This document shows positions 991 through 48,843 of a stretch of 64,000 nt of DNA, one piece after another. The notes below the pieces were generated by a model. That model ran no database searches. It saw only the letters and a program-made list of their open reading frames with translations, and was not told the DNA's origin. The DNA is from Telopea speciosissima. Taxonomy: Eukaryota > Streptophyta > Magnoliopsida > Proteales > Proteaceae. Every line of letters begins with the position of its first letter. The stretch's first letter is position 1. The stretch covers positions 21,339,568 to 21,403,567 of the forward strand of contig NC_057925.1 in assembly GCF_018873765.1 (NCBI RefSeq), written 5' to 3'. The translations under genes and the position numbers were made by a program.

Positions 991-1250
991 ATAGTTATTC
1001 GCCGGTGACAGCCCACGAGGGCGCTCACACTACTACAATATAGTGGGGGACAAGGTGAGGAACAAAAGGCTTGAAACCGAGACCTCTTAGTAGCTTGTGC
1101 TCTACTATAACAGGCTCAATCCAACTTCACTGGCAGATGTCCTTGATTAAGCCTTAATTTGGCAACTAACCAACAAGTGTATTTATGAATTGGGAAAGTG
1201 TTTCCTATAAGGGAGCCTGGCCCCTGTGTGTGCATGGTGACCAATGGGAG

Positions 1251-3019: not shown

Positions 3020-3024
3020 GGGTG

Positions 3025-4110
3025 TGTAGACACTGAAATTGTGCCACAACCTTTGGCGTGATGACAACAGGACACGGATGGAATACATCGCACCCTTACC
3101 CCCTGAGAAGCCCAAAGTAAGCCCAAACCAGCCCAAGATGGCCCACAGAACATGGCGCTATGGTAATTCACCACGGCGCCGTGGTAATTTACCACCGCAC
3201 CCCGAAAAAGGACAAACATCACCAAAGTGACATCATCCACGGTGCAGTGGAAAAATTTTCTACGGTGCCGTGATCTGTGGGGCACCCCTATAAATAGGAG
3301 GGCCCCCATCTCTATTTTCATGGAGAAATAGGCAAGGAAGACCCTCCAAATCGATTTCTCAGCTATTTTCCCTCTTTTGGCCACTTTGAGTGATTATGAC
3401 CAGTTTCTCCCGAAGAATGGATAGATCCTTCGATTATCCCATTTGAGTGATGAATGCTTCCTTCCTAACCCAGTCGTTACTCCGTCCGCATACGGGTAAC
3501 AAGAATCTTCTTTCATAGCCGTTATTCCGTTCGTATACGGATAACAAGAAATACCCCCAGTAAGCCGTGACTCTGTCCGAAGAACCGGTGACGATATGTC
3601 CATCCGTCTCCACCTGATCCAAGGGACCACTGATAGTCACGGAATTCCTGCGCGAAGGTATAATCATTACATTTTCATCGTTACAATGTAGTCTTTTGTG
3701 TTTTCCCAACCCTGTTTTAGTGTATATAGTATAAATACAATACATTCTGTACAGTCAATTTAAACATACTTTATGAGGAAAGAATATTCGACATTCAGCA
3801 TCTAGAATAGAAAGACCAATTCAATTGGACAAGATGAGTGCCTAACACCTTCCCATCCTTATAACCTGACCCCTTGCCCGATCTCTGACCAGGCCATATG
3901 GAATCTCGTAGCCCATTTCCACTCAAACTGGATAGGGCTACCCCCATTGGGTCCTAGGCCCTAATCCTAGGTGGCAACTCCATTCTTATGAAGCATGATC
4001 CCCATCCCCATGATAATATGTCCCAATGACATACTGTCAACATCCAAAGACTTATCCCTGTCACCATAAGGCTGGGTGGAACCTCGTCCCCAAGGACCGC
4101 GTTACTTACA
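3025..4110 (+). repeat. 5' LTR of the Tat element
   Basis: 1086 bp, TG...CA, direct repeat of 18997-20095. It contains palindromic CACGGYRCCGTG boxes around 3150-3265 including a perfect CCACGGCGCCGTGG at 3171-3184, TATAAATA at 3289-3296, two hairpins at 3476-3500 and 3521-3545, the shared box GAGTGCCTAACACCTTCCC at 3836-3854, and a CCTAATCCTAGGTGGC block near 3964. It should drive transcription of the genomic RNA. Confidence 0.95.
3289..3296 (+). promoter_or_regulatory. TATA box of the 5' LTR
   Basis: TATAAATA directly downstream of the palindromic U3 boxes. A start site would be expected about 25-35 bp further on. In the 3' LTR the same position reads TACAAATA near 19261, so only the 5' LTR keeps the canonical box. 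Confidence 0.75.
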
Positions 4111-4111
4111 G

Positions 4112-4129
4112 TGACGACTCCACTGGGGA
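4112..4129 (+). promoter_or_regulatory. Primer-binding site of the Tat element
   Basis: TGACGACTCCACTGGGGA starts one base after the LTR end, where a tRNA primer-binding site is expected. The matching tRNA was not assigned from memory. A related GGTGGCAACTCCATT string also lies inside the LTR near 3971. Confidence 0.65.
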
Positions 4130-5248: not shown

Positions 5249-6702
5249 ATGAATAGGATTCTTTCTTCTTTCTTATGTAGAGGCACGATTCCCTATCCAA
5301 GAAAGTTTTCCTTACCTGTGTGGACCAGAAATGATGGGAGATTAACTCGGACCAACCAGTCACTCCTTTCAAACATTCTATCACCCTCTTCCTCTTCTAA
5401 TTCTTTGGCCAAAGTATCACTTGGAAGCAGCATGGACCCTATCAACGATTATCACTCTAAAAGTCATTTGGAGCAGCAAGTAGAGCAATTGCAAGTAGAT
5501 GTGGCAGAAATGAGACAGGTCATGACCCAAGTGTTGCAAGCAGTCCAGTTGACCTCCAAAGGGGATTCAACACCAGTGTCTATTGAGCAAGAAGTGAGAA
5601 AGGCTACTCCAATAATTCCCACGGCATCAGTTACAATAATAGTAGAAGAAGGAGAAGATGTTATGGCAAGCCTATCATCTGACCCTCCCAAAACTGAGAG
5701 GGAGAAGAAGATGAGAGAAAAGGTTGAGAAACTAGAAGTTGCAGTCAAGGACAATGGCAAAGAGAAAGTTGAAGAAGAGCTGGTTTTCTTTCCTAAATGA
5801 AGAATACCCGATAACTTTAAATGGAAACTAGATAAGTTTGATGGTGCAGGAGATCCTAAAGCCCATCTTAAGATCTTCGCTATGGTGGCCAAATCTTGGG
5901 ATCTTACGAAAAACCAGATGGGATAGGCCTTTCTTTACTCTCTGGCTAGATCGGCTCTGAGATGGTTAACTCAGTTAGACCAAACTCAGACTCAAAAATG
6001 GTCCTCTGTGATGAAAGCTTTTACTAAATAGTATCCTTACAATATTGAGATGGACATTACTAGGAGAGAACTGGAAACCTTGAGGTAAGAGTCAAGTGAG
6101 GAATTCCCAAATTTCATTGCAAGGTTTCGAGAAAAAGCTGCAAAGATGTGGCACCGTCCTACGAAAAAGAACAGGTGGAGATTTTGTTTGAAAATTTGTA
6201 CAGGGAGTATCAGGATAAGTTGTATTACCAGCACATCAATACTTTCGATGCCCTCATGACCATCAGAAAGAAGATTGAAGACAAGATCTTCAAAGAAAGG
6301 CAAGTACAAGGAGTAACCAACGAGACGACTAGGACTTACTCTGGGAGAAAGGTTTCAAAACCAAAAGGAATGAACACAACTGGATCCAGTCGCCAAGCAG
6401 TAGAAGTACAAATGGTCTTTGTAATCGCCCCGCCACTTGTAATCCAGGCAAAACCAGAACCTCCTAAAAGAGTTTTCAATTTTGGGGGGATGACACTGAC
6501 TGTGCTATTCACCAAGCTCAAGAGGGAAGGAATGATCAACACCGTCCCACCTCGACATGTGGATATGGCCAATCTACTGACATGGTATAAGCCTAATCTG
6601 TATTGTCACTATCATGACCAAAAGGGACATCAGACGGACAAGTGTATACATCTCAAGCATGCTATCCAAGACATGATAGATGTTGGGAAGATCGAGCTTT
6701 AG
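5249..6702 (+). pseudogene. gag: gag of the Tat element (broken)
   Basis: Capsid/nucleocapsid polyprotein that would form virus-like particles. The frame from 5249 holds a coiled-coil-like segment (HLEQQVEQLQVDVAEMRQV) and a charged KEK-rich stretch, and stops at 5798-5800. The gag core continues beyond it (KLDKFDGAGDPKAHLKIF, then EFPNFIARFREKAAKM) through several in-frame stops between 5800 and 6100. The frame at 6148-6702 has a C-terminal knuckle-like motif, CHYHDQKGHQTDKC, of the Tat-lineage type. The native start is uncertain; ATG at 5432 (MDPINDYHSK) is an alternative. It is a decayed copy and would not give a full gag. Confidence 0.8.
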
Positions 6703-9456
6703 ACAAGACAATAGCCGAACATGACTGCAACTCCGTTATCGGCTCATGGGGTGAATATGTTAAAGGAGGATTCGGGATCCGAGGATCCCACTCCCCTAAT
6801 CAGGCTTGTTGGAAGGAGAAGAAAGCTGATGGATGCACACATACAGAGCCCTTCTTACATCAAAGAAAGGGAAGAAAGAGCATCAGATTGGGTGAGAAGT
6901 CTTTCAAGAGGTGAACCGACCTGACTCCCCCTTATATCACCCAAGGTCTCCAGACAATAGGCAAGTAGAGTCTCTTCTTCCACTAAAGAAAGTACCACAA
7001 CCTCTAATGAAGGGATCTTAATCTCCGGAATCATCCACGTGGTCGGTAAACATGATTTGAGAAGAGGAATTTCTATTGGATCCCATCACTTTAATTCACC
7101 CCCAGGAAAGAGAGAAGCATTTCCAAGAAGAAGAATGGTATTTATCAAAAAGTAAGAAGGCTTGAAAGAAAAGGGCCCAGCGGATGCAAGTATGTGCTCG
7201 TTGTGCCAGAACAAACTGTGATGGTAACATCCGGGAAGGAGGACAAGTATGTGGTTAGGGAAAGGGCATGACATCTAATAGGAGGCTTCAGAAGTTACAT
7301 TTCCTAGAAAAGGGTCTGGATAGCCTCGAGCCAGGTGTACCTTTGAAAAAGTATGGATTCACAGCTCATGAAGTTGATTATTTGGCACCAAAGTAGGAAT
7401 CTTCTGACAACAGTGAGGAAGGTGAGGAGGCTATAAAGAAAGTGACACCTAACCTACTTAAGGCCGTGTCAGCACTTGCCATTGGACAATCCTTATCTGA
7501 AGAAGTCTCTCTCATTCAAATTGGAGGAGACACAGAGGATACTGCAGAGGAGAGAGAAGAAATTGAGTGCACCAAGGTATATAATAAATGGATGAATTTT
7601 ACTGAAAAGGAGGTTTGCTTGGAATCTTCTCAGGATGAGTTCTCCATAGAGGCAGCTGGATGGATAAACAGCATTGGGGCCGATGATGACCATATTGATC
7701 CCACCGATCTCATCCACCCATTTCTCTCGAAAAGCGACAGCGAAGAAGGAAATGATGAAGAAATAGGATCCCCAGAAAACCCTAGAATAAATTGGTCTTT
7801 GTCTGGAAGGGATTTTGATCGATGGAGCATGAGTGTCTATTATCAAGTAGCAGACATAGTGGATGTTACCACCAACACCCAAGAAATCCTATACAAGGCC
7901 ACTTCCCGGTTCCCAGATCTGATCTGTAGTAATTTTGTGGCATGATGTGAACAGTTAGAAATGCCAAATGAAGATGATCTACTCCTCCGGACTTTGTACG
8001 AACTAAGGAATATGACTTAGCTCGCCAACGCTTTGGCACAAGATATATTTGGAGCACCTCCTAAAGACCTCATGTTATATTCAGATTCCCAAGCATACCC
8101 GAGCCCTCCCGGAAGAGAAGAATGGTAAATGTGGGTCAACAACATCAACACGGGGATCCCTTTTTTGACCCCACAAATGATATCCGACCCATGGAGGTGG
8201 ATGACGAGGAAAGATCAAGTGAAGAAGACTCATTTGAAGAAGATGAGAGTGAGGAGAATTTGGGCCAAGGGATTCCGATGATGAAGAAGCAGAACAAGGA
8301 GAGGGCAATTCATCTGAAGAGGACGAGGAATCTATAGAGGAAAGCCAAGAGGAAGAGGAAGAAGAATCCGATCGGCCAGTGACCCCTTTTGACAAATATA
8401 GAAATATTTGTGGACCAGAACCCTGGGATCTACCATTCCAAATAAGCAAGGTCCACAAGGATATTAATAAGATCCAAGAAATGCTCACGAAGATTGTGGT
8501 TTCAGATGACAAGTATCAAGAGGAACTTCAACAATTGGAACCAATCAGGGAACAGTGGGTTCGACCGCAAGCTATATGTTACTTGAAAATTTTGATGAAA
8601 TCGACATTCGCCTTGACACAAGATTTGTGTGGAACTCCCCCCTTCTTCCCCTGATCGCGGCAGTGAAGAGTATCATGAATGGGCACAAGCACATGATTAC
8701 TTCCTCCTCAATAATGTGAATGAAGAAGACCATTTTGATGATCCCATGGGAAACATCTATCTAGTTGCCTCTAATCTAGAGGAATGTTCAAAATTTAGCT
8801 CCAAAAGCCTCAGTTCCCAAGGTAAGGGAGTTGGCCACTTCTACAAGTCTTTGGCAGAAGCGAAAGAAATGCATCTAGCAACCCTAGAAACCTTCCACCA
8901 GTTACATCAGATGATCCCTAGGAACCCAAGCGACCCTGACCTTTGTCATTTAATGCAATAAATCACTGAAAGCAAGAATCCTTAGCAAAAATCTTGAGTC
9001 AGGTTTGGGAGTCCATCTCTGTTATGGAAGTCAAGGTCGAGAAGCAAGTGGTAAAGTAGAGGAGTCCTACTATAGGAACCATCATTATCATAGACAGTGA
9101 TATAGAAGAAGAAGATGTTTCCCCAGTTGAGTTAATCATCAAAAGAGAAGAATCAGAGGTAATGGAGACTAGAAGTGGAAAGGATTTCAAGAATAAGGGT
9201 TTGACGGTAGAGATGCATCAATCTAATCACCCGAAGCTAAATAATGAACCCGAGAATCCAGTATTGAATCAGTTGAAGAAGGCCCAGGCAAATATCTCAT
9301 TCTGGGGATTGTTGATGGCCTCACCAACTCACCGAGAAGCGGTACTGAAATCTCTTGCCAAAGTTCAAGTGCCCATTGAAATGGCACCAGAGGAACTATC
9401 CCACATAGTAGGAGCCACTTATGCAATTCAGTCGCTAATCTTCTCCAGATGAGGAT
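6703..9456 (+). pseudogene. Acidic gag-protease spacer region, unassigned
   Basis: Broken sense open frames (7442-7945, 8122-8337, 8379-8654, 8629-8961, 9162-9452) between the gag knuckle and the protease. The peptides are strongly acidic (for example SDSEEGNDEEIG, DEERSSEEDSFEEDESEE). They show no catalytic motif I recognise. The position, orientation and composition suggest one long spacer coding region interrupted by stops and frameshifts. It is longer than expected for a simple gypsy polyprotein but compatible with the large Tat elements. Confidence 0.5.
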
Positions 9457-9815
9457 TTGCCACCTGGAGGGAAAGGACATAACAGAGCACTCTACATTAC
9501 TATGGAATGCAACAAAAACCAAGTTCCTCAAGTATTGATTGATAATGGCTCTACCCTCAATGCCATGCCATTGAAAGCCACAAAGTGCATGGGTTTGCCT
9601 TTTGACAAGATGAAGCCTTCAAGCCAAACCACAGGGAATATGACAACACTAGGCGAGAAGTGATCAAAATCCTCACCACGGATATCAAGGTAGGGCCGGC
9701 CTAGTTCACCATTGACTTTTAGGTTATTGATATCCAGGCCTCTTTCAACATGCTACTAGGGAGGCCATGGTACATTGTATAGGCGTTCTTACATCCAGCC
9801 TTCACCAAAAGTTGA
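9457..9815 (+). pseudogene. Aspartic protease of the Tat element (broken)
   Basis: Retroviral-type aspartic protease that would process the polyprotein. The catalytic motif reads VLIDNGSTLNAMP (DNGS in place of the commoner DSGA, usual in this lineage) around 9532-9570. The frame stops at 9661-9663. The C-terminal flap and hydrophobic region (VIDIQASFNMLLGRPWYI) continue in another frame to about 9815, with stops. Frame change plus stops make it non-functional. Confidence 0.8.
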
Positions 9816-10021
9816 GATTTATTTATGAGCAAAAGGTGATCACCATTTTCAGAGACTTAGAAATGGTTTACACATTTGCAAATAGAGAAGTGGAAGGTTC
9901 TACTCCATCAGAAATATAGTTAGGAGGGTTTGAAATTGGAAATATTTGTGTAACCCCTTCCAAAGAAAAAGAACCCATCCCGGCTAAATTCCCCATCAAG
10001 TGGAGCACGGCTTTGTTGAGG

Positions 10022-10396
10022 ATGATGAGGAAGATGAAGTACTTCCCAGGCTTGGGATTGGGAAAGAACTAGCAAGGAATACCAAAGTTCCCCGAGATAC
10101 TAGCCAACACCAATCGCCACGGCTTAGGTTTCACCCCAATGAAAAGAAAAGCCTCTACAGGAGGGAGGAGCAACATCAAAGGATTGAAGAATCAGAAGAT
10201 TGAGATCACCCCTTACTTCAGAACTTTGAATGGTTACTTTGTGAAAGAAGGGGAGAGTTTCCCATATTGTGGAAACATTGAACCTTGGTTCAATCAAGAG
10301 ATAGACAGCTTCCAGCCTGGGTTTAAGATATTCTTCAAAGATGAAGTAGACTGGGTAACCATGGAGTTGGAACAAGCCAAGATGAACAAAGAATAG
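10022..10396 (+). pseudogene. G-patch-like segment of the Tat polyprotein
   Basis: The frame starting at 10022 reads MMRKMKYFPGLGLGKN, a stop, then QGIPKFPE and RHGLGFTP. The glycine and aromatic spacing resembles a G-patch, a short RNA-binding or helicase-stimulating motif also found near some retroviral proteases. It is in frame with the open stretch at 10139-10396. It sits between protease and RT, where a linker is normally expected. One stop (TAG) lies inside the motif. Function here is inference from the motif only. Confidence 0.55.
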
Positions 10397-10417
10397 GATA
10401 ATCAAGGGATTGATGAG

Positions 10418-12310
10418 TTGTTCGAGATAGCAATGATCACTGAAAGCAAGGAAGGGCCAATACCTCAACTCCTGATACAGCCTCTTCAAGGATCCATAGG
10501 AAACTGGGCAAGGGTTGCAGAAGATTTCTATGTCATAAAGTCTGAAGTTGTAGCCAGCTCTAGTGTAATCCAATCTGAGTCTAAGTCTGCATATGCTTTC
10601 CAAAGGGAAGTTAGTAACTTCCAGTTTGTCGAGTCCATTTGTACTCCTTTTATCATGAATGAAATCGTTAATTCCAAGTATGTTTCTTCTTCTTCTTCCT
10701 CTTATTCTTCCGATGATGATGATGTTATCAAGCATCAAGATCTTTTAGAAAAATTAGAGCAAAGAAGGGCCCAGCCCATCCGAGAGGACAAATTTTTCAT
10801 AAATTTAGGAACTGACCAATGCCCTCGAATGACCAAAATTGGTTCATCTCTCAATAACGAAGAGATCCACCAAATGACCTCTCTCCTCAAGGAATTCGAG
10901 GAAGTCTTTGCATGGTCTTATGAGGATATGCCTGGTATCGACCCAGAAATCGAACAACATTGACTACCAACGTATCTGAATGCTCGCCAGCAGAAGCCAA
11001 GACGAATGCGACCAGAGTGGAGTGAAAAGATCAGAGAAGAAGTCATTAAGCAATGCGATGCAGGGTTCCTTCAAGTAACCCAATACTCTCAATGGTTGTC
11101 CAATATTGTTCCAGTTCCTAAGAAGGATGGGAAAGTCCGGATGTGTGTAGATTTTTGCGATCTGAACAAGGTTAGCCCCAAGGATGACTTCCCACTGCCC
11201 CACATCAACATACTAGTCGACAACACTGTCGGGCACACGCTGCTATCATTGATGGATGGATTCTCTGGCTACAATCAGATTAGTATGTGTCCCAAAGACC
11301 GGGAGAAGACTGCCTTTACCACACCATGGGGGACATTTTGTTATAAGGTGATGCCTTTTAGGTTGAAGAATGCATGTGCAACGTATCAGAAAGCAGCCAC
11401 AGACATATTACATGACATGATACACAAGGAGGTCGAGGTATACGTCGATGACATGATAGTTAAATCAATGGATCATCAATGGCATTTTGTAGCATTGAAG
11501 AAATTCTTTGAAAGAATAAAGGAATACAACCTCAGGTTGAATCCACAGAAATGTGTATTTGGGGCAACGACAAGTAAATTGCTAGGTTTTCTCATTAGCG
11601 AGAGAGGGGTGGAAATAGATCCTGAAAAGATAAAGGCCATCACAGAAATGCCAACACCAAGGATGGAGAAAGAGGTCTACGGATTCCTGGGTCGCATTCA
11701 ATATATAATTAGGTTCATATCTCGATTAACCATAATATGTGAACCTATTTTCAAGCTCTTGAAGAAGGAAGAACCAAAGGAGTGGAATGGTAAATGCCAA
11801 GGCGCATGCATGAAAATCAAAGAGTATCTGGTACATCCACCTGTCCTTATTTTGCCAGTTTTGGGCGAACCCTTGTTGCTGTACTTATCAGTGGAAGAAA
11901 TATCCATGGGATCAATGATAGCACAACTCGACCAGAAGAATGGGGAAGAACATGCGATTTATTCCTTAAGCAGGAAGTTGCTAGGGTATGAAACTCACTA
12001 TACTCCCTTGGAAAAGACCTGCACATCTTTAGTCTGGGTAACTAAAAGATTAAGGCACTACATGATCTCACACCCAATTCGGCTCGTCTCCAAAATGGAC
12101 CCGATCAAGTACCTCTTTGAGAAGCCAGTCCTGACTGGAAGAATGGCCAGATGGTTGTTGTTGTTATCAGAGTTTAACATAACCTATGTTAATCAAAAAT
12201 CCATAAAGGGGCGAGAGATATCTGATCACTTAGCTACACATCCCACGGTGTCAAATTCACAGCCAGTGGAAGATTCATTTCCAGATGAAGAGTTGTGTCT
12301 CGTTAAAGAA
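10418..12310 (+). pseudogene. Reverse transcriptase and first RNase H of the Tat element
   Basis: Core of pol. The frame at 10418-10963 holds a serine-rich linker and the RT lead-in (EFEEVFAWSYEDMPGIDP) and ends in a TGA. The frame at 11006-12409 then covers RT: VPKKDGKVRMCVDF, LMDGFSGYNQI, and the catalytic YVDDMIVKS around 11441. The MPFGLKNAGATYQ-type motif reads MPFRLKNACATYQ, with two glycines replaced. The gypsy RNase H follows (LLLYLSVEEISMGSMIAQL; THYTPLEKTCTSLVWVTKRL; TYVNQKSIKGREISDHLA). Its first catalytic aspartate is not evident: YLSVEE stands where the family usually has a YLAVSD-type motif. Confidence 0.9.
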
Positions 12311-12933
12311 GGTCAAGAAGAAGGATGGCAGTTATACTTTGACGGAGCTGCAAACAAGAAAGGATATGGAGCAGGTGTATTGCTAGTAACCCCTGATGGG
12401 TTTTTTTAACCCATGTCATTCCGTCTAGAGTTCAGCTGTACCAATAATATTACAGAATACGAAGCATGCACCATTGGCTTGGAAATGGCCCCATCTATGG
12501 CTGTAGAAAAAATCAAAGTATTCAGAGACTCTTCAGTGGTGATTTGCCAGACTCAGGGAAAATGAAAAACAAGAGATGAAAAATTGAAACCCTATCAAGA
12601 GTATCTAGAACAAATGATCAAGTGTTTTAAGGAAATCTCTTTTGAATATCTGTCAAGGGACAATAATAGATTTGCAGATGCTCTGGCTATTTTGGCCTCC
12701 ATGGTAAAATATGATTCCCAAGCCAAAATTCGACCCTTTTTGGTTGAAAGAAGGGCTAGTCCAGCATACGGAGAACCCATAAACTTATTGACAGTAGACA
12801 GAAGGGTTTGGTTCGCACTTGTGGTTGATTATATCAGAGAAAGGAAATATCCAGAATATTTCACAACAGGGGAGAAGAAACGATTGAGGAAGTATGGCAC
12901 ACATTTCATTCTTCAAGAGAATCTGCTATATTA
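12311..12933 (+). pseudogene. Second (archaeal-type) RNase H of the Tat element
   Basis: A second RNase H domain follows the first, the diagnostic feature of Tat elements. The four catalytic acidic residues can still be placed: D in WQLYFDGAANKKGYGAG, E in NITEYEACTIGLEMA, D in KVFRDSSVVI, and D in NNRFADALAILASM. Two in-frame stops (TAA after PDGFF at about 12406, TGA at about 12563) break it. The downstream part (frame 12584-12934) runs toward the integrase zinc-binding region. Confidence 0.85.
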
Positions 12934-12934
12934 G

Positions 12935-14057
12935 AGATCTATGATGGAATACAATTATTATACGTAGATGAGGAGCAAGTTCAAGCCATCATAGAAGAAA
13001 TCCATCAAGGGATCTGTGGACCATATATGAATGCAAGAATGCTCGCCAAAAAGATACTCAGGTTAGGGTACTATTGGGCAACCATGGAAGCATACTGTAT
13101 TACCTTTGTCAAGAAATGTCACAGATGCCAAATATTTACCAATGTCATACATATTCCTCCCATGGAGTTGCATTCGTTAAATGCTCCTTGGGCATTCTCA
13201 ACTTGGGGATAGACGTAATTGGGAAAATAACTCCGAAGGCTTCTAATGGCCATGAATTCATTTTGGCCACCATAGACTATTTCACCAAATGGGTGGAGGC
13301 TCAGTCTTATGCAGTCTTGACTGCCGCCAAGGTGGAAAAATTCATCAAAGAGAACATCATTTGCAGGTATGGTGTGCCTTATGAGCTAATTTCAAACCCT
13401 TATGAGCTAATTTCAAACCAAGGGAAGGTAGAGGAGCTTTGTACCAAATTTGGTGTAAAAAGTCACCGGTTTACAACATATAGACCACAAACTAATGGAG
13501 CAGTAGAGGCAGCCAATAAGAATATAAAAGTCATATTGTAAAAAATGGCTGACACACACAAGGATTGAGCAGATAAGCTTCCATTAGCTTTATAGGCTTA
13601 TCGAACCTCTATCCGGACTTCAACCGGGGCAACCCCATATTCTCTAGTCTATGGAGTAGAGGCGGTTTTACCTATAGAAATACAAGTGCCTTCTCTCCGA
13701 ATACTTTTCAACAGTCAACTTACTGAAGGAGAATGGATGAGAGCCAGGTATGAAGAAATTAACCTCTTGGATGAGAGGAGGATGAAAGCCATGGATAATC
13801 TCAAGAAATATCAGCAAAGGATGGCCAGAGCATTTAGTAAAGAGGTGCGACCTCGGAGCATTGAGGTAGGAGATTTAGTGCTAAGGGAGCAAAGGGCTCC
13901 GATTCATGACCCTCAAGGAAAGTTCCGACCCAATTGGAGCGGCCCATACAAGGTGAAGGCGATCTTACTAGGTAGCACAGTTCGTCTCATGGATATAAAC
14001 AGAGAAAACCTCTGGGGATTGGTCAATATGGATCAATTGAAGAAATACTTCGTCTGA
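12935..14057 (+). pseudogene. Integrase of the Tat element (broken)
   Basis: Integrase that would insert the cDNA. The zinc-binding HHCC region reads around FVKKCHRCQIF (about 13107). The core begins GIDVIGKI with the first aspartate kept. The second aspartate is lost: the usual ISDxG motif reads LISNQGK. The glutamate is kept in PQTNGAVEAANKNIK. A 21-bp direct duplication at about 13379-13420 repeats PYELISN just before the mutated site. The C-terminal GPY/F module is visible at 13686-14057 (KFRPNWSGPYKVKAIL). The frame is split at least three times. Confidence 0.88.
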
Positions 14058-14349
14058 ACCTTTGATCAACTTGAACTGCGTTCGACCTGATTCCACCCAA
14101 GGGGTACGTAGGCAACTTGGCATGTCCAAGTGCGGTCTCATCAAAAAACAAAAAAAAAAAGAGAATAAAGGGCATGATGTTAGTCCATTCCATAATTTTG
14201 CCAACCGGCATTTCCCCTATGAAAACGTTGAATTCCACCAAATTGGCCTTCAAAGTCCTTCCCGGTGTATTCGACCTAGGGTGTATTTGAGGTTACTAAG
14301 AGCTGGTTATTAACTAAGAGACTGACCCTTGTCGAAGTTACTAATGAGA

Positions 14350-15030
14350 TCTTCGATGCAGGTATCATGAGGGAGTCGAAGAAAAAAGGGTTAAAAGAAC
14401 AGTTGCGTCAGTGGACTCTCCGTATGCATATGGATGGCCCTACATTGCTAGAAGATGTTAAGTTACCCATCCCAGGCAGAATCAGGTGTTTCAAACTTCA
14501 TCATGACTTAATTCCAAAAGCATGAAGATGTTGGAACCCTCAGTTACATGTTTTTCATTTTGGAAGAGTCAAGATAGCCCCAACCATTGAAGAATCCCGA
14601 GCTTGCATGCTATCACATCCACAGGGAAGCTTGTTTCACCCAACAGTGCAAAAGACCAATCCCACAAAGAGTTAGAAAGCTTCTTCAAACTAAGCAAGAA
14701 GGAAATTAAGTAAATTTTCCACTATGACAAGGTGGATGCAGTAAAAGTGATTAAGATCTTTGCCAACAATAGGTCGGAAGAAGAATCTCGAGGCCAAAGC
14801 AGGAAAAGGGCTTATCTCTTTTGCATGATCGGAAGATATCTTTTGAGGTCTCCAGGGAAAGGCATGCTTCCCATGATAACAAAGGTGGTAGAATAGATTG
14901 AAGAAGAATGCGACATTGTTCCTACAGTTTTGGCAGAAACTTTCAAGGATTTGGACTCCATGTGTCATTCTCAGAAATATGGGAAATATTTCTTTTATGG
15001 GTCTCTAGTAGCGTTCCCGATGTGGTAAGC
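14350..15030 (+). pseudogene. Sense DUF7745-like extra ORF remnant
   Basis: Downstream of integrase, sense-strand peptides in two frames carry RCWNPQLHVFHFGRVKIAPT followed by IEESRACML, then SRKRAYLFCMIGRYLL and CDIVPTVLAETFKDLDSM. The pattern of an aromatic-x-P...H-x-F-x-FG...PT-x-EE block followed by a helical region with ALxxLFP-like segments resembles uncharacterised plant DUF7745 proteins. Published surveys report extra ORFs after pol in the Tat lineage. Several stops and at least one frameshift are present. The family name is my best match from memory and needs a profile search. Confidence 0.5.
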
Positions 15031-15323
15031 AAATGATGTCGGTTTAATATTTGGTCCATTTGCTCCCCTTTTCCATGTAGTCAAAAATTTTAGGAGAAAG
15101 AATGTATTGGTTTTGGGAATTGTGCCTCTACAAAGGAAGAAGGAAGTTCTAATTACATCCATGTGTGTTTGCCTAACAATATAAAAAAAATAAAAAGAAG
15201 AAAGAATGTACATATAAACATGAAGTACAAAAAAAATGAACAATTTGTTTTTTTTTACAAGATAATAAACAGGGGGAGGGGAAAGAAGTCAGATGTCCAG
15301 ATCATCAACTGGGAGACTGCCAT

Positions 15324-18284
15324 CTACTCGACCACTCCTAGATTCACCCCCTGCAACCGGAGGGTCTCTATCTCCAATCTGGCCTCCACCAGGTCAGCTT
15401 GATACCTCTTAGACTGGGCCCGATATCTCTCAGCCTCCCCCTGATAGAAGGCGGACTGTCCCCTCTGTGAAAGAAAAGGAAACATGCAAGAGAGTGAGCA
15501 AAAAAAATAATATAATCATCAACAGGAAAAGATATGAAAAAAATTCATTAGGAGCCTTACCCAACACTGGGTCATCTCGACCCTCGAGATGATGGCCTCA
15601 TCCATGCTGCACATTATACGCCGCATGTTGGCATATCTCGCAGCCCTAACCTGAAACCTCAGTAAATTAGTCTCTAACCTGGAAAAAGAGAGAAAGAGAA
15701 GAGCAGAGAGTAAGGATTCTTACCCCATTATAGGGGAGAGGAAGACTGAGATCACCATCGGGAGTCTGGGGAGGATGTAGTATCATATCAGGCCTCCGAG
15801 CTCCATCAACTGGATAGTCCACAGGCGGTAACCCTTGATATGGCCATCCATAACGGCTATCCGACATCCAGGCTCCCCCCTGAAGTCCCAGCCTCTGAAT
15901 GACCAACAGCAGTCCTGGAAGCATGAGATGATTGCCCGCCACCAAAGCTCCCTAGGAAGAGTGTATGGCTAGGGTATTGCAAAAGAGAAATCAAATTAAT
16001 AATAATAATAAAAAGGGAGAGGAAAGAGAGAAAGAATAAGTTTTTTTGCTTTACCTGAGGACCTCTTGTGGAAAGAGAAACGCAAATGGTCTCCCTGACA
16101 AGGAAGGCACCGTAATCACCCTCATCAAGGGTCAGGTGGGCCACCTCCTCCCCCAGCCTCCAATGCATAATCTCCTCAGGTGGAAGAATCTCGGGATTAT
16201 GCATTCGAGCTGGAGGAAGGCAGGGAACATGCCTCACCTCAGACCATTGGAGCGACACTCCCTCCTCCAAGTAGAAGGAGTACCCCTAGGGCCCCTGGAA
16301 CAAAATCTGTCATGAGTAGAGAGCGACAGCCCTGTCATACATCCCAGGCTCGGAGTCTTACTCTGGGAGGTAGGGCTGAAAGGCAACCTGCAAGGAAAAT
16401 ATTGAAGGTTAATAAAATCAAAATAAAAGAAAGAAAGGAGGGGAGTAAGGATTGTCGTTTTGAAACTTAAATCCTCGAACCTCAACTCGTTCAAAAGGAT
16501 CCGCACCTAGGGCAGGTCCTTGTGTCGACCGCTCTTGGGGTAGATTCCCTTGACCCAACTGGCTGCTCGGGGAAAGGAAGGGCCAGGATCATCGCCAGAC
16601 TGGAAAGAAGGAATCCAAAATCGGAGGACCTCATAGCTCCATGTCTATAAAAAAATATACATATATATATATATATATACAAAACAAAGCAAAAGTCGAA
16701 GATATGTGTTGGTATACTTACCCAAAGGACATAGGCGCAACCGATGAGGTTCGGGGACCCCACGACCAAGAAGTCCATCATGCACAGGAAGTGTGCGTAT
16801 GCGAAGCTTCCCCAGTCGTACTTTGTCGCTTGATCAAAGTCCTCGAAGAAGCGACAGTAGGCGAGATCAGAGATCAGCTTGATCATATCACTAAACACGA
16901 CCTCTGTCAACAAGTAGAGCAGGAAGCACCTAGCCAGCTGATCCTACTTCTGGGGAGACGACACATCGGTCACCACCCTCTCCCTCCAATTCAATTGTAG
17001 GGTATTGGTGGACATCCCCCGTTCGGTCACGGGGATCCCCAACATGTTGTGGAAGTAGTCAAGGCCGTCAAAAGTCTCGAGTTGGTCCGCTGCCATCAGT
17101 GTAACGGGCTCCCCTCCAAAAGACAGCCCAGTAATCATATAAAAATCGAGAAGTTTGATGGTCACGTCTCCTACTAGAAGGTGGAAGGAGTGGGTGCTCA
17201 GCCACAACCTCTCCACGAGCACGTGAGCAGTCGCGCTGTCCAGATCTCGAGAGCTATGAGCAGCTATGTACCCTAAGCCTGTCCGTTGCACTCTCGATCA
17301 GACCTAGGGACAGATCTCCTTGTACCAGTAGATCACCTTATCGGTGCAACAGTACTTCTTGAGGTCAGAAAGTAGCCTCTTCTACAAAAAAAAAAGAAGT
17401 GAGAGAGCAAAAGAATCATGGTTAGTACCCAAATAAAGAAGAATATAAAAGGAAATAATCAATTAAGTTGTTAAAATAAGCCTCGCCTCATTTTATGCGC
17501 CAAAAGCTTCCTAGGTTGGTGTTAGAGGTCTCACCTTGTTTTACGTGTCAAAAGGTGCCTAGGTTGGTGTCTAGAGGTCTTGCCTCATTTTGCATGCTAA
17601 AAGGTGCCTAGGTTGATGTCTGGAGGTCTCACCTCATTTTACGTGCCAAAAGGTGCCTTGGTTGGTGTCTGGAGGTCTTGCTTCATTTTATGTACCAAAA
17701 GATGCCTATGTTGGTGTCTGGAGGTCTCGCCTCATTTTGCATGCCAAAAAAGTGCCTAGGTTGGTGGCTAGAGGTCTCACCTCATTTTACATGCTAAAAG
17801 GTACCGAGGTTGGTGTCTGGAGATCTCACCTCGTTTTACATGCCAAAGGGTGCCTAGGTTGGTGTCTGGAGGTCTTGCCTCGTTTTGCATGCCAAAGGGT
17901 GCCTAGGTTGGTGTCTGAAGGTCTCGCCTCGTTTTGCTTGCCAAAGGGTACCTAGGGTGGTATCTATGGTCTTGTCTCGTTTTACACGCCAAAAGATGCC
18001 TAAGGTGGTATGTATTGGCCCCATTTTATTTTTATGCTAAAGGGTATCTAATCCAAAAATAATTGCATAAATTTAAAAAATAATAAATAAATTACGGTCA
18101 CAAGAATAAAATAAACATTAAATAAATGTACCAGTGGAGACTGTCCCCATATGTGGCCACAGATATGGCGACTGGTATCCCTCAGTGTATCACCAGTCAT
18201 GTACCATCCGGCCCATACGTCCTCGCTGGTCACACCCAACAGAGGTCCATCAGTGGAGTGTCGGGCACGTCTACAAAGAGCCAT
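15324..18284 (-). pseudogene. Antisense plant-mobile-domain (PMD) gene, seven exons, seven stops
   Basis: Minus-strand gene inside the Tat element. My exon model: 18284-18132 (starts MALCRRARHS), 17381-16722, 16644-16468, 16387-16055, 15951-15724, 15650-15561, 15464-15324 (ends LGVVE, TAG). All six introns are phase 0 and five have GT...AG ends; the donor after exon 3 is eroded. The product would be about 593 residues. Exon 2 holds the PMD (aminotransferase-like) core: LVERLWLSTHSFHL, GDVTIKLLDFYMITGL, then CFLLYLLTEVVFSDMI and KYDWGSFAYAHFL. Exon 4 has ILFQGP and YLEEGVSLQ; exon 7 is coiled-coil-like. In-frame stops: three in exon 2, one in exon 3, three in exon 4. Host PMD proteins (MAIN/MAIL1) act in genome stability and silencing; the role here is unknown. 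Introns can persist because the genomic RNA carries the gene antisense. Confidence 0.8.
17480..18045. repeat. 49-bp minisatellite, about 11 copies
   Basis: Tandem repeats of a 49-bp unit containing GAGGTCTCACCTC, ATTTTACGTGCC and GGTGCCTAGGTTGGTG. The array lies wholly inside the first intron of the antisense PMD gene (18131-17382). Units differ by point changes; the edges are more diverged. Confidence 0.88.
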
Positions 18285-18370
18285 CAGAGAATGAGAATCT
18301 AAGATGAGAAGGAGGAGAGGCAGAACTTTGCTAAGGAGGAAAGAGGTAGAAAGGGTTGAAAATGACCCTT

Positions 18371-18378
18371 TATTTATA
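18371..18378 (-). promoter_or_regulatory. TATA box of the antisense PMD gene
   Basis: TATAAATA on the minus strand, 87 bp upstream of the ATG at 18284. This matches the octamer in the 5' LTR (3289-3296) and the solo LTR (25074-25067). Confidence 0.7.
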
Positions 18379-18394
18379 GATTTAGCTGATCGTG

Positions 18395-18545
18395 ACAGCG
18401 TCGTGAAGGCGGTCATGGCGCTATGGAAAGCTTTCTACGTTGTCGTGGACACTTATCGACGGCGCCGTGTCTTTGACCACGGCGCCATGATAAGGTCCTA
18501 CCGCCATTTCACGGTGCCGTGAACATCCCCACGACACCGTGATCC
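18395..18545 (-). promoter_or_regulatory. Palindromic CACGGYRCCGTG boxes upstream of antisense TATA
   Basis: Several copies of a 12-14 bp near-palindrome, including ACGGCGCCGTG near 18470, ACGGCGCC near 18479 and TCACGGTGCCGTGA near 18509. They lie immediately upstream (minus sense) of the antisense TATA box. The same boxes fill the U3 of the LTRs at 3150-3265, 19135-19250 and 25113-25245. Confidence 0.65.
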
Positions 18546-18587
18546 AAAAAAAAAAAGGAGAAAAGGAAGGATTTTTTCAGGTGGGAC

Positions 18588-18830
18588 TCTCCGGTGCCAC
18601 ATCACCCTCAATTGTTTGATTTCCAATCGAGTGGTGCCACATCACCCTCAATTTTCTAACTTTCAATTAAGTGGTGCCAAATCACCCTCAATTGTCTGAT
18701 TTTCGGTCAGGTGGTGCTGTATCACCCTCAATTGTCTGATTCCCGGTCGAGTGGTGCCGCATCACCCTCACATGTTAAACATCTGGTTGAGGAGTACCAT
18801 ATTACCCTCGAATGATTTGGTTTCGTCCGA
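18588..18830. repeat. 40-bp tandem repeat, about 6 copies
   Basis: Repeats of about 40 bp with the core GTGGTGCCACATCACCCTCA and an ATTGTCTGATT spacer, in the 3' untranslated region just before the PPT. Copies decay toward the right. Confidence 0.85.
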
Positions 18831-18981
18831 GTTTTCTTTTAAAGTTTATCTAAAGATTTAATCATGATTAATCACTTACAACTCTGCCGCCTTTGAGCAA
18901 AGGGTCAACAGTACATGCTTTTGGTGATAAAATCAGTCGTTCTTTTGTGTTTTCCCTATGGCTATTGGCACAGGCCTCAGC

Positions 18982-18996
18982 CAAAGAAGGGCAAAC
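18982..18996 (+). promoter_or_regulatory. Polypurine tract of the Tat element
   Basis: Purine-rich AAAGAAGGGCAAA-type tract directly before the 3' LTR start TGTAGACACT, the expected plus-strand priming site. Confidence 0.6.
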
Positions 18997-20095
18997 TGTA
19001 GACACTAAAATTTTGCCACCACTCTTGGTGATGATGACAACAGGACACTGATGGAAGACGTCGCACCCTTACCCCCTGAGAAGCCCAAAGTAAGTCCAAA
19101 CCAGCCCAGGAAGGCCCACAGAACATGGCACTATGGTAATTCACCACGGCACCGCAGAAAAGGATAAATGTCACTAAAGTGACATCATCCATGGTGCCAT
19201 GGAAAAATCTTCTACGGCACCGTGGATGACCACCACGGCACCGTGATCTATGGGGCACCCCTACAAATAGGAGGGCCCCCTACCTCTATTTTCATGGAGA
19301 AATAGGCAAGGGAGACCCTCCAAATCGATTTCTTAGCTATTTTCCCTCTTTTGGGCCACTTTGAGTGATTATGAGCAGTTTCTCTCGAAGAATGGATAGA
19401 TCCTTCGATTATCCCACTTGAGCGATGAGTGCTTCCCTCCTAACCCAACCATTACTCCATCCGCATATGGGTAACAAGAATCTTCTTTTATAGCCGTTAT
19501 TCTATTCGTATACGGATAACAAGAAATACCCCCAGTAAGCTGTGACTTTGTCCAAAGAACCGGTGACGATACGCCCATCTGTCTCCACCTGAGCTAGGAG
19601 ACCACTGATAGTCAAGGAATTCCTGCACGAAGGTATAATCATTACATTTTCATCATTACAATATAGTCTTTTGTGTTTTCCCACCCCTGTTTTAGTGTAT
19701 ATAGTATAAATATAATGCATTCTGTACAGTCAATTTAAACATACTTTATGAGGAGAGAATATTCGACATTCAACATCTAGAATAGAAAGACCGATTCAAT
19801 CAGACAAGATGGGTGCCTTACACCTTCCCATACTTGTAACCTGACCCATTGCCCGTTCTCTGACCAGACCATATGGAATCTCGCAGCCCATTTCCACTCA
19901 CACTGGATAGGGCAACCCCCATTGGGTCCTAGGCCCTAATCCTAGGTGGCGACTCCATTATTATGAAGCATGATCCCCATCCCCATGATAATATGTCATT
20001 GTATGTCCCAATGACATACCATCAACATCCAAAGACTTATGCCTGTCGCCCTAAGGCCGGGTAGAACCTCGTCCCCGAGGACCACGGTACTTACA
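18997..20095 (+). repeat. 3' LTR of the Tat element
   Basis: 1099 bp direct repeat of 3025-4110 with many substitutions and small indels. It has an extra palindromic box near 19225-19245 relative to the 5' LTR, and its TATA box is mutated to TACAAATA. It ends TTACA at 20095, followed by the GGGTG duplication. Confidence 0.95.
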
Positions 20096-20100
20096 GGGTG

Positions 20101-22469: not shown

Positions 22470-23454
22470 TTATGAGGACATTGACATGGGGATCGCCATG
22501 TGTCCCCCACCTCATCCCTCTTTGGGAAGAAGAGAGAGGTGAATTGAATGTTGGAGTCGCCACCTAGAAGGGGGTCTGGGATCCATAATGTAAAGTTGAC
22601 TCTCTTGTGATGCTCTTGGGGGATTGATCGATCCATTAGTCTGGGTACGGGTCAAGTTACGATCCGGGGAAGGTATTAGGCACCCCAATCCGCCCAGTCA
22701 AGCTGGCCTTCCTATTACTTGGTTAGACAATGGTATAACATGCTCGAAAATAAAATACAAAAAAGAGTAAAATACAAAAATAAAGGAAAGAGTTTAATGC
22801 ACTTACTAAGGGGGTCTTGGCTACAAGGCAATGGTTAGTATACAGGGAAAGTAAAACAAAATGGGAGTAAAGAAAAACATACCTAAAATGTTTGATTGCA
22901 TGATTAGTATACATAATGTAAACAAATAATATACAAAATAGGAATGAACAATGCATGAGGAAGCAAATCTTAAATATGCAAGCCCTAGACTAGGATGCAT
23001 GAATGAAAGGTAAACCAAAGGGAAATCCTGAGAATGCAAAGATGTATATAATGCATGGCTAAAACCCTAAGCAATGTAGCTAAATGATGACAATATGCAT
23101 GCGAACCGTATGCAAAGCAAATCAATGAAAAATCTTAAATATGAAAGCCCTAGACTAGTATACATGAATGAAATGTAAACCAAAGGGAAACCATGAGAAT
23201 GCAAAGATGCATATAATGCATGGCTAAAACCCTAAGCAACGTAGCTAAATGATGATAATATGCATGAGAATCCATATGCAGAGCAAATTAGTGAAAAATA
23301 TGAAAACACCTCTAAGGCTAATGCAAACCTAGAAAAAACCTAAAAAATCCCATGAAGTAATTGAAAATAGGGAAAACACTTGGAAAGCAAGACAATGGTA
23401 AAAACATTATTAAAACATAAAAAAACATTAATGAAAGCATGAAGCAAAATTGAA
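22470..23454 (-). repeat. Tat-type LTR fragment with 165-bp direct duplication
   Basis: Minus-orientation LTR fragment. The shared box is present reversed as GGGGAAGGTATTAGGCACC at 22666-22684, and GGAGTCGCCACCTAG lies near 22553. Two direct copies of a 165-bp segment start at 22965 and 23130 (both AAATCTTAAATATG, then AAGCCCTAGACTAG). The outer start is not resolved; it abuts duplication copy B at 23455. Confidence 0.7.
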
Positions 23455-24003
23455 GCACATGCACATGCGCGGAAGCATCAAGTGGGGTGTTTATTTTGTA
23501 TTTCATGGGGGCAGAGCGAATATTTTACCACCTCCTATGTCTTAGTGCAAGTGCCACGTTCTCACACAATAACCATTCTCCCTTGTGAATTTATTTCTCC
23601 CTCCCCCGCCACTTTTATTTTTTCTGTTAACACGAGAAACTCTTAAATTGTTTCTAATATAAGGAGCCAAATCAATTATTGCATCATCTATTTCTTTCTT
23701 TCCTTGGCATCCAAACATAGCTTGAAGAGGTGATAATTTTAGCTCATTATAAGATATGGGAAAGCCCCCAATATCATGGAAGAAAGCCATCCCAATATCC
23801 CCCATAACCATGAAATATGTATTGAATTCTGAATTGAACAAGTAATTTCCAAAATTTGAAGTGCAACACTCCTACAAGTTGTACTTTCCAATGGAAGGCC
23901 AATAGGCGCTGTGTGTTTTTCTCTCCTCAATTTTAATTTTTTTAAATTTTTTTCTTTTATTGCCTTCCAAAATAGCTGTAAACATACATTCCTACATCAT
24001 AGG
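23455..24003. repeat. Segmental duplication copy B, LINE 3' flank
   Basis: Second copy of 1251-1791 in the same orientation, about 22 kb away. It ends at the LINE poly(A) tract (T run from about 24004). Confidence 0.85.
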
Positions 24004-26756
24004 TTTTTTTTTTTTTGGGTGCAAAGAAAATTTATTGAATAAAGCCTCTAGGGAGGCAAATACAAGAAGCATCATAAAATAAGAAAGCAACAGAAAAGGA
24101 GGAGAATCCCAAATTGCTAAGCCAGACAAATTCACACTAGCCATTTGTAAGTACCGTGGTCCTCGGGACGAGGGTTCCTCAGTCTTATGGCGACAAGGAT
24201 TGGCTTCGATGAATAACAGCGTATCATTCCGATATATCATCATGGGGATTGGGATCATGCTTTATAAAGGAATGGAGTCGCCACCTAGGATTAGGGCCTA
24301 GGACCCAATGGGTGTAGCTCCATCCGGGGTTAGCGGAAAGGGCTACGTGATTCCACATGGTCTGGTCAGAGATTCAGGGTAAGTAGTCAGGTTACGAGGG
24401 TGGAAATGTGTTAGGCACCCACCTCGCCCGGATAAACCGATCTTTCTACTAGATGCTGGTTTTTGAATATTCTCCCTTGATGATATATCTTATACTAACA
24501 TGTAAGACTAAGTTATGATACACTAATCTTGACAAAGGAAGAGAAAATCATTTATTATGTACACTAAACGAGTTGCTTTAATTGTCTACATTATGCTAAA
24601 AATAATGAAAGGGAAAGAGACAGATACCTGTCTAGAAATACAAGAAATAAATGAAAGTGCACCAAGGGCGAAATATGTGATGTCCCACGGCTCAGGTGGA
24701 GACGGACGATCGACTTGTCTCTCTCTTGTCGGACAGAATGAGGCTATACGAGATGAATTTTGTTACTCAGACTTCGGGCAGAGTAACGGCTATATAAGAG
24801 ATTCTCGTTATCTGTATACAGACAGAATAACGGCTGTCAGGGGGGTTTTCCGTTATCCGTACACTGATGGGATAACAATACCCAAGAGCAGAATCGCTCA
24901 ATGCTTGGATGGGTAATCGAAGGATCTACCCAAGTCGAAGAACTGCACTCACTCACATACTCAAGAGGGAAAGATGGAGGAAAAAAGGGTGAAAAGGGGG
25001 CAAAACGAGCCCTAGAGGGTCTCCTTACCCGAGAAAAGCTTGTCTTTTGGGGTAGGGGGACTCTCCTATTTATAGGGAGGGGTCCCCTCTCTCTCCTGGC
25101 CAGATAAGTCCTCCACGGTGCCGTGGGGGACTTTTCCACGGCGCCGTAGGTGACATCAGCAAGCTGATGTCACACCCCCTCATGGTGCCATAGAAATCCG
25201 GTACACATCCCCACGGTGCCGTGGGAAGGAGTCCACGGAGCCGTGGGGGCGCAGTGTCATTTTTCCTTATTTTTTGAGTTTTTGGCTCCCTTCTGACTCT
25301 TCAAAAAATTTTCTGTCGGGGGGCTCCGCCCCCCTACACCCCCCGCAGGGGGGTTGCCTGCCCCCCTAGACCCCCACGGCCTGCTAATCGGCTAGCGGGA
25401 CCGCCGTAGTGGGGGAGGGTGAGCAGTACCTCCTTCAGCATTTGGTAAAAGGGTCTTATAAGTCATTTTAGGGATGTTAGGGTGATTTGGTTTAGATGTA
25501 GGGACAAGAGTCCTTCTTGAGAGAGATACCGATGTCTGTCCGTGTCCTGTTGTCATCATCGTCGGGGGGTGACAAAATTCAGTGTCTGTAGCATTGCTAA
25601 TGCATCAGCCACAAAATTTCCTTCATGAAGCATATGAGCGAATTTAACTTGTTGAATACAAGACGCAAGGAGGCAATCAGAAAATAAATGTTGAAGGCGC
25701 CAAGGTATTGAGTGATTCTTCCTTAAAAGAGTATTGCTAACCAGGAGGTCATCACTCTCTAAAATAATCCTTTGGTAGCCTCTCAACACCGCCATGATCA
25801 GAGCTTGTCTAATAGCCAACATTTCAGCAATCATCGAGTGAGCACACCTATACCAACCGAAAAACCAAAGATGAAGTTTCCAAGGTGGTCTCTTCCCACA
25901 CTACCAATACCAGCTGGACTAGGGTTGCCTTGACTAGCTCCATCAACATTAATCTTGATGAAACCCATAGGAGGAGGTGACTAGCGGATTTTCATTTGTG
26001 ATGACTCCAATGAAATATCATTTCCTAGATCAAGGAAACCTTGAGCAAAGGATATGGCTTTAAAGGCAATTGAGGGAATTACTTTGAGGATCATCTCCGT
26101 GGGCATGACCCATATACGAAGTCCAAATATGCCAAAGGAGGCTTGCAATCCAAGCCAAAGTGTGAGAGTCTTTAGGTTTAGATGCAAAATGAATAGCTTG
26201 TATCACTCCCTCCCTTATATCAACTGATAGAGCAAAATCTCGTAGATTGATTCTTCCCCACAAGGAGTTCGCCCGAGAGCATCGGAGGAAGAGGTGGTAT
26301 GGATTTAAAATCCTAGATGTACAAACTGAGCATGTCTGAGGTAAATTTAAACCCCAACTGCAAAGGAGATCTGTCATAGGAAGGCGGTCCAAAAGCAGTT
26401 TCCAAAGGAAAATTTTCACCTTGGGAACAGTTGGTATATGCCATAGCTTTAGCCAAATTGAATTCACTGGTTTTAAATTCTTTTATAATTCCAGCCGATA
26501 TGCTGATGCTACTTTGAAAATACCATTAATTGTAGGAAGCCAGATGAATCTGTCCATCGTAGGCATCTAAAAGGGATAGGTATGGCCAAAATCTACAACA
26601 CAAAATCCAAAGGCCACTAGTAAAAGATCAGCTCTTATTTCCACATCTTTGTAGTATCATTTATAAGTTGACACACTTTTGTTGGGGCGGCATAATGATG
26701 CATCAGAAGGTGTCCAATTGGGAATCCAATAATCTTGCCATGGATTAATGGAAGAA
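24004..26756 (-). pseudogene. LINE copy B, interrupted by a solo LTR
   Basis: Duplicate of LINE copy A, in two blocks, 24004-24140 and 25596-26756. The zinc-binding region (26060-26467: FLWKLLLDRLPMTDLL) and the RNase H-like region (25556-25834: IILESDDLLVSNTL) are recognisable but frame-shifted. The uninterrupted site near 26690 (TTTTGTTGGGGCGGCATAATG) shows the pre-insertion state for the gypsy insertion in copy A. The 5' side ends where copia LTR sequence begins. Confidence 0.85.
24146..25590 (-). mobile_element. Solo LTR of the same Tat superfamily, 1445 bp
   Basis: Minus orientation; on the plus strand it runs TGTAAGTACC...GTGTCTGTA, matching the Tat LTR ends reversed (one end mutated from TACA to TGTA). 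It is flanked by CCATT (24141-24145) and GCATT (25591-25595), a 5-bp duplication with one mismatch, inside LINE copy B. TATAAATA lies at 25074-25067, palindromic CACGG(T/C)GCCGTGG boxes at 25113-25245, three hairpins at 24762-24786, 24806-24832 and 24851-24875, and the reversed shared box near 24400-24420. No internal region remains, so it arose by LTR-LTR recombination. Confidence 0.88.
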
Positions 26757-33912: not shown

Positions 33913-33979
33913 GTTGTGTCCCTTGCTTCTCCTTCGTTTCCGCTCTCTTCTTCTTCTTCTTCACATTCTGGCTTCCGCC

Positions 33980-46631: not shown

Positions 46632-46648
46632 TTTGCCCCCCACTCTCT
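46632..46648 (-). promoter_or_regulatory. Polypurine tract of the rearranged element
   Basis: On the minus strand AGAGTGGGGGGCAAA precedes the LTR start TGATAAA. The same junction occurs at 48943-48960 in unit B. Confidence 0.75.
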
Positions 46649-48288: not shown

Positions 48289-48359
48289 GAACTTCTCAGA
48301 CTCTGCCTCTAAACCTCAAACTCGCGTCAAATATGACGTCACGTACTTCCCCCTTTTTT

Positions 48360-48840: not shown

Positions 48841-48843
48841 CTG

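Follow-up and report, generated by a model that had tools for sequence, protein, structure and literature searches.

How can a retrotransposon, which is copied through RNA, carry a gene interrupted by introns? The question is raised by a stretch of 64,000 nucleotides of Telopea speciosissima (contig NC_057925.1, positions 21,339,568 to 21,403,567; called the window below, at its whole length), which contains a complete long terminal repeat (LTR) retrotransposon of the Tat type of Ty3/gypsy elements. Judging from the sequence, the minus strand between pol and the 3' LTR of this element holds a decayed seven-exon gene of the plant mobile domain (PMD, PF10536) type, a reading that holds in the analyses described here. 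An antisense model of seven exons had been proposed in a preliminary description of this DNA, and joining the minus-strand segments 18284-18132, 17381-16722, 16644-16471, 16387-16055, 15951-15724, 15650-15561 and 15464-15324 indeed gives 593 codons including the natural stop. All joins are in phase 0, five of the six introns have GT...AG ends, and the frame contains the seven premature in-frame stops of the present copy counted before. The earlier account gave five junctions; the third (16471/16387) was placed here from the frame and reproduces the earlier codon count. Intron 3 begins with TT in the present copy, not with GT, and five of the introns measure 73-103 bp, the remaining one 750 bp. 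Two T. speciosissima proteins annotated 'MAIN-LIKE 2-like', referred to as P0001 (279 amino acids) and P0002 (361 amino acids), were available for comparison, neither of them used in drawing the original gene model. The model reads as follows, including the intron 1 minisatellite that had already been noticed:

18132..18284, minus strand: exon 1 with the start codon, ATG at 18284
17382..18131, minus strand: intron 1, 750 bp
17482..18009, minus strand: 49-bp minisatellite within intron 1, 10.8 copies
16722..17381, minus strand: exon 2, PMD core, 3 premature stops; PF10536 at 69.9 bits alone, 55-56% identity to P0001
16645..16721, minus strand: intron 2, 77 bp, GC 0.21
16471..16644, minus strand: exon 3, 1 premature stop, 3' end placed here
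16388..16470, minus strand: intron 3, without a GT start, supported by the Pfam match
16055..16387, minus strand: exon 4, 3 premature stops
15952..16054, minus strand: intron 4, GT...AG, GC 0.30, acceptor uncertain
15724..15951, minus strand: exon 5, alternative start at 15968
15651..15723, minus strand: intron 5, GT...AG, acceptor uncertain
15561..15650, minus strand: exon 6, open frame, weakly favoured by composition, no homologue match
15465..15560, minus strand: intron 6, GT...AG, GC 0.30
15324..15464, minus strand: exon 7, coiled-coil-like end and natural stop

The PMD identity was borne out by the PF10536 profile, which at the same time bears on splicing. Exons 2-4 joined scored 96.0 bits, compared with 67.4 for the same genomic stretch left unspliced; the score rose from that of exon 2 alone to 82.4 bits with exon 3 (+12.5) and to the full value with exon 4 (+13.6), the match then spanning profile positions 7-294 of 347. 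When exon 4 was read in its two other frames, exons 2-4 gave 84.6 and 81.4 bits, that is, a gain of 2.2 or none. These gains speak for introns 2 and 3 and for reading exon 4 in the model frame; for GT-less intron 3 the Pfam match is the sole line of evidence. The whole joined frame, with X at the stops, scored 94.5 bits (membership cut-off 34.9), and therefore exons 1 and 5-7 contribute nothing to the match; with exon 5 in any of its three frames the score was 95.2 to 95.3 bits.

Independent evidence on the splice sites came from the two relatives. The protein searches covered only proteins sharing exact words with the query within a length range, and recovered P0001 at E ≤ 1 and P0002 at E ≤ 10; a third word-limited search (E ≤ 10) gave no match, the words of the coiled-coil end having probably drawn unrelated candidates. 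The donor-acceptor pair of intron 1 ranks first among 525 GT-AG pairs (21 donors by 25 acceptors scanned) against P0002, that of intron 2 first among 112 usable pairs against P0001 and P0002 each, and the exon 7 acceptor at 15464 first among 88 AG sites when joined to P0001. P0002 is uninformative at intron 3, where the model pair ranks 519th of 735 with a score of 465 against a best of 471. In comparison with 300 shuffles, exon 7 scored 74 against P0001 (maximum 51), exon 3 scored 50 against P0002 (maximum 43) and exon 1 barely exceeded its maximum (51 against 49, also with P0002). Where it aligns with P0001, the broken frame shares 54% identity with that protein, and neither relative, few as two are, reads through the introns. 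Thus, of the splice sites described earlier, introns 1 and 2 and the last acceptor agree with protein ranking and introns 2 and 3 with the Pfam gain. No relatives appeared in the viral contigs or prokaryote genome contigs searched, the PDB sequence search returned two insignificant matches only (E 0.48 and 0.61), and a fold prediction of P0002 with P0001 had a mean predicted local distance difference test (pLDDT) score of 32.8.

GC content and the overall stop count are consistent with this model. The guanine-plus-cytosine content (GC) is 0.21-0.41 in the introns compared with 0.52-0.57 in the exons, and the joined frame has its 7 premature stops where 500 dinucleotide shuffles gave 25.2 +/- 4.5, with a minimum of 14. 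By a simple score against the splice consensus, pyrimidine-rich acceptors number 13 among 277 AG sites on the minus strand and 1 among 380 on the plus, a contrast partly due to the minus strand being rich in T; donors with a score of at least 7 number 7 of 212 GT sites on the minus strand and 3 of 289 on the plus.

Several observations weigh against the model, or parts of it. Its donors are ordinary, with scores of 6 or 7; a score of at least 6 is reached by 34 of the 212 GT sites, three of the five GT donors go no higher than that, and therefore the donors prove nothing by themselves. Taken singly, exons 3 and 4 are not depleted of stops (1 stop in exon 3, as few in 219 of 500 shuffles; 3 in exon 4, as few in 181 of 500), and codon and base composition do not back exon 1 in the model frame. 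Exons 4, 5 and 6 match neither P0001 nor P0002 beyond shuffles, exons 5 and 6 being backed by open frame and splice signals alone. Exon 5 could begin at 15951, which keeps phase 0 without a stop, or at 15968, which puts it in another frame with one stop. Codon usage and third-position GC tend towards the second start, base composition is divided between the two halves of the exon, and either frame is compatible with the data; the limits of introns 4 and 5, and their phase, depend on this choice. The earlier claim that all introns lie in phase 0 thus agrees with every join as modelled, but may fail at introns 4 and 5, depending on the frame chosen. P0001 runs from the first residues of exon 3 directly to exon 7, omitting most of exon 3 and exons 4-6, and is therefore taken to be shortened or imperfectly predicted. 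Finally, the relatives are just two annotated proteins of one species and, together with a single decayed copy, they are all from which the gene is known, through sequence data.

The element that carries the gene extends over 17,071 bp at 3025-20095, with LTRs ending in TG...CA and a 5-bp target duplication:

3020..3024, no strand: left target-site duplication GGGTG; the joined flanks match a related unoccupied site
3025..4110, plus strand: 5' LTR, TG...CA, end fixed by the target duplication
10964..12406, plus strand: pol part with reverse transcriptase and RNase H (PF00078 82.3 bits, PF17917 73.7, PF17919 59.3)
12566..12931, plus strand: second RNase H, RVT_3 type, between RNase H and integrase (PF13456 25.3 bits, partial match, cut-off 21.6)
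12829..13209, plus strand: integrase zinc-binding domain (PF17921 29.6 bits)
18997..20095, plus strand: 3' LTR, with the same dyads as the 5' LTR
20096..20100, no strand: right target-site duplication GGGTG

The two LTRs are 87.5% identical (BLAST, gaps counted) and differ at 8.3% of 1066 ungapped sites (69 transitions, 20 transversions; Kimura distance 0.090). The left flank is sequence resembling a long interspersed nuclear element (LINE), with PF13966 and PF13456, and a second LINE-like copy near 26687 is unoccupied at the site of the element; the joined flanks are identical to it in 366 of 397 columns. Given the target duplication and this related unoccupied site, the 17,071 bp behave as a single inserted unit. 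The LINE-like copies, at 1243-3022 (where zf-RVT and RVT_3 domains were detected) and 23448-26687, are each interrupted by an LTR-type insertion and provide a natural unoccupied-site comparison. Directly after the 5' LTR stands TGACGACTCCACTGGGG, which may resemble the Ogre primer-binding type for tRNA-Arg. Tat membership, assigned before, was borne out by the order PF17917, PF13456 (partial) and PF17921, since Tat elements are defined by an additional RNase H, sited in angiosperm Ogre/Retand between RNase H and integrase (PMC6317226).

Upstream of the gene, the TATA box noted earlier ahead of the ATG at 18284 was found as TATAAATA at 18378-18371 on the minus strand, within a region with the following features:

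18371..18378, minus strand: TATAAATA, TATA box of the antisense promoter
18394..18541, minus strand: six dyads CACGGCGCCGTG (at most 3 mismatches), three pairs 20 bp apart
18593..18770, minus strand: 40-bp minisatellite upstream of the antisense promoter, towards the 3' LTR, containing a GGTGCC core

At up to 2 mismatches the dyad CACGGCGCCGTG occurs 13 times in the window, compared with 0.30 expected, and all occurrences fall into four places: the 5' LTR (3), the 3' LTR (2), the antisense promoter (4) and 25114-25245 (4). None lies in the 14,173 bp of the element at 4112-18284 or in the 37,313 bp beyond 26688, and the four in the 276-bp antisense promoter compare with a mean of 0.003 and a maximum of 1 in 1000 shuffles. 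At up to 3 mismatches, 18 of 29 are located in the four promoters and 11 elsewhere, 8 of the latter in tandem repeats at 46.9-49.8 kb; at this threshold the pairs are spaced 20, 20 and 20 bp in the antisense promoter, 21 and 23 in the 5' LTR (dyads at 3151, 3172, 3238 and 3261, TATA at 3288-3296), 23 and 21 plus one single site in the 3' LTR, and 23 and 22 in the insert at 24146-25593. Each dyad group is followed, in the direction of transcription, by a TATA box, CTATAAATA in three and CTACAAATA in the 3' LTR; CTATAAATA also occurs twice far from any dyad, at 52840 and 59739. The local alignment score of the antisense promoter with the three LTR-type U3 regions was equalled by 3, 1 and 0 of 500 shuffles. 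This resemblance to an LTR promoter suggests, at the level of sequence, common control or common descent.

The GGTGCC core is enriched in intron 1 (5, shuffle mean 0.30), the upstream array (4, mean 0.14) and the 3' LTR (6, mean 0.43), tandem duplication inflating the array counts, and does not exceed shuffles in the 5' LTR (2, maximum 3) or the LTR-like insert (4, maximum 4). The 40-bp unit of the upstream array is twice the dyad spacing. The insert, 1,448 bp at 24146-25593 in the second LINE-like copy, is LTR-like on the minus strand with the same dyads and TATA box; its ends match the LTRs of the element in reverse, and it is probably a solo LTR of a related Tat family.

The explanation we favour, with somewhat better than even confidence, is that of a decayed accessory gene which the Tat element carried as its own part, transcribed from an antisense promoter and spliced. 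In intact copies, transcription by RNA polymerase II would begin at the antisense promoter next to the 3' LTR and proceed in the direction of pol. Removal of the six introns by the spliceosome would yield a PMD protein of about 590 residues that ends in a coiled-coil-like stretch. As follows from established retrotransposon biology, introns antisense to the genomic RNA are invisible to the spliceosome there and therefore survive reverse transcription; those of the present gene, being reversed in the genomic RNA, would remain unspliced and be passed on to sibling copies. Because antisense promoter and LTR share paired dyads and a TATA box, one common factor may activate both the antisense gene and genomic transcription. 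The protein would then most likely act in the nucleus against silencing, perhaps as a competitor of the host MAIN/MAIL1-PP7L silencing complex or by capture of that complex; MAIN and MAIL1 are PMD proteins that silence transposable elements (PMC5418596), and PMDs encoded by such elements have been proposed as counter-silencing factors (PMC8616336). Helping the element to escape silencing is the likeliest role of the antisense protein, though taken by itself less likely than not; against it stands that counter-silencing by a retrotransposon PMD is a published suggestion, of which no test was found in the passages covered. The sequence itself establishes the boundaries of the element, the PMD identity, introns 1 and 2, the frame of exon 4, the last acceptor and the promoter layout common to gene and LTRs; transcription, splicing, inheritance by sibling copies, co-regulation and counter-silencing are inferred.

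A rather unlikely alternative is that an intron-bearing host PMD gene, or a DNA transposon with a PMD, landed backwards in this single copy and never took part in the life cycle of the family. The gene is known from one element copy, and PMD genes do occur as host genes and in Mutator-like elements (MULEs) (PMC5418596), as such a capture would have it; however, the gene sits where Retand elements hold antisense open reading frames (ORFs) (PMC11963269), its promoter has dyads in common with the LTRs and, of four inverted-repeat pairs detected in the range 14054-18996 (16-26 nt, 76-82%), one encloses the gene, with 21 nt at 76%. A nested DNA transposon was rejected, the terminal repeats around the gene being unconvincing.

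That the antisense transcript matters and not the protein, convergent transcription giving double-stranded RNA that dampens the element with the PMD frame as a passenger, is improbable as well: antisense transcripts and regulation mediated by double-stranded RNA have been proposed for such ORFs (PMC7264820), but a passenger would hardly keep the identity to P0001 seen in the broken frame or a domain match across two introns. The decayed state of the copy, the three of seven exons without a match in the relatives and the unremarkable stop counts of exons 3 and 4 might also be taken to mean that the introns are gaps drawn by chance to link an ordinary degenerate PMD ORF; this is very improbable and already contradicted by splice sites that independent proteins rank first, by the Pfam gain on splicing with its frame controls and by the overall depletion of stops.

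An accessory gene belonging to the Tat element, as preferred here, has several known counterparts. ORFs in antisense orientation downstream of pol and ahead of the 3' LTR have been described before, with promoters of their own (PMC7264820) and with tandem repeats in that region (PMC11963269). Those of the Retand/Grande type have the same place and orientation as the present gene, Grande including an upstream promoter of its own (PMC7264820) and tandem repeats nearby; where a domain is known they mostly carry Transposase_28, and they are described as ORFs (PMC11963269), whereas the present gene is a PMD gene with introns. The main text of that article uses none of the terms 'intron', 'PMD' and 'mobile domain'. 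PMDs were reported in 57% of Ogre elements (PMC6317226); a survey of gypsy elements recorded them in ten plant species, a number that rises to 40 when one filter is omitted (PMC9289625). The Ogre extra ORFs likewise have PF10536 in a Tat element, but were called where a frame reached 250 codons (PMC6317226), while here the frame is split by six introns; another survey counted antisense ORFs longer than 600 bp, and shorter ones for one domain (PMC11963269). In an intact sibling, the region around exon 2 would be open for about 296 codons even before splicing; published PMD ORFs that reach 250 codons may therefore, in some cases, be the cores of genes whose introns went unnoticed.

Gypsy elements carry PMD clades of their own, and the gypsy-encoded PMD-A1/A2 clades belong to the same domain family as host MAIN/MAIL1, the host proteins silencing transposable elements whereas the present gene is borne by one (PMC5418596). 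The PMD tree in that work was built with a gene predictor applied to surrounding sequence and could include spliced models (PMC5418596). Neither P0001 nor P0002 carries a clade label.

VANC proteins of the Arabidopsis VANDAL transposons are anti-silencing factors that bind a repeated motif of their own and remove methylation. The VANC gene resembles the present one in being a transposon gene with introns, with tandem repeats in an intron and upstream and with short noncoding motifs (PMC5735166). It differs in belonging to a DNA transposon and encoding a DUF1985 domain, for which the best score here was 14.5 bits (E 0.035) against a cut-off of 35.1 and the 592-residue frame had no match at E ≤ 10; a DUF1985 link was rejected as weak and below significance. 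The resemblance would thus be one of arrangement and not of membership. By analogy, it is conceivable, though quite doubtful, that the paired dyads are a recognition site for the antisense PMD protein, which would relieve its own family of silencing, the tandem repeats of intron 1 and upstream, with their GGTGCC core, being further docking sites; if this were true, introns on the reverse strand would let repeat-rich regulatory sequence sit inside a gene without harming the genomic RNA.

Ogre, with its gag-pol intron, and EVADE are likewise LTR retrotransposons that use host splicing (PMC12786077, PMC6317226), but their introns lie on the sense strand and are spliced from part of their own transcripts, whereas antisense introns such as the present ones would leave the genomic RNA intact. 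A review of December 2025 names these two as notable exceptions among plant LTR elements, generally without introns (PMC12786077), and another review calls for attention to antisense and spliced transcripts (PMC7264820). Among the literature matches listed, a small part of all those matching, and in the passages cited here, no antisense gene with several introns was found for a plant LTR retrotransposon. This suggests that what is new here is the multi-intron version of an otherwise known antisense PMD-type gene in a Tat element.

Elsewhere in the window, a decayed Ty1/copia element occupies 26965-31433 (Pfam: copia-type gag, Pol_BBD, RVT_2) and a minus-strand gypsy-like remnant with RVP_2 and Tf2-1-like SH3 domains lies at 60490-63706. 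An open frame of 250 codons with EF hands, located among repeats at 33914-34666, looks like a host gene, no search having been aimed at other host genes. A large block of nested direct and inverted repeats at 46011-52534 includes a 33-bp tandem array, whose translation reads like WWSTDLGGI, as well as arms in inverted orientation, 288-538 nt long and matching at 93-95%. The 64 kb gave no match in Rfam and tRNA scans.

For the biology of these elements, a six-intron antisense accessory gene shows how a retrotransposon copied through RNA, normally unable to keep introns, can retain them. Surveys based on ORF length would detect, at most, the exon 2 core of such a gene, and its exon-intron structure would go unnoticed. 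The dyads shared by the antisense promoter and the LTRs, in turn, allow a direct test of whether PMD proteins borne by transposable elements counter the silencing exerted by MAIN/MAIL1.

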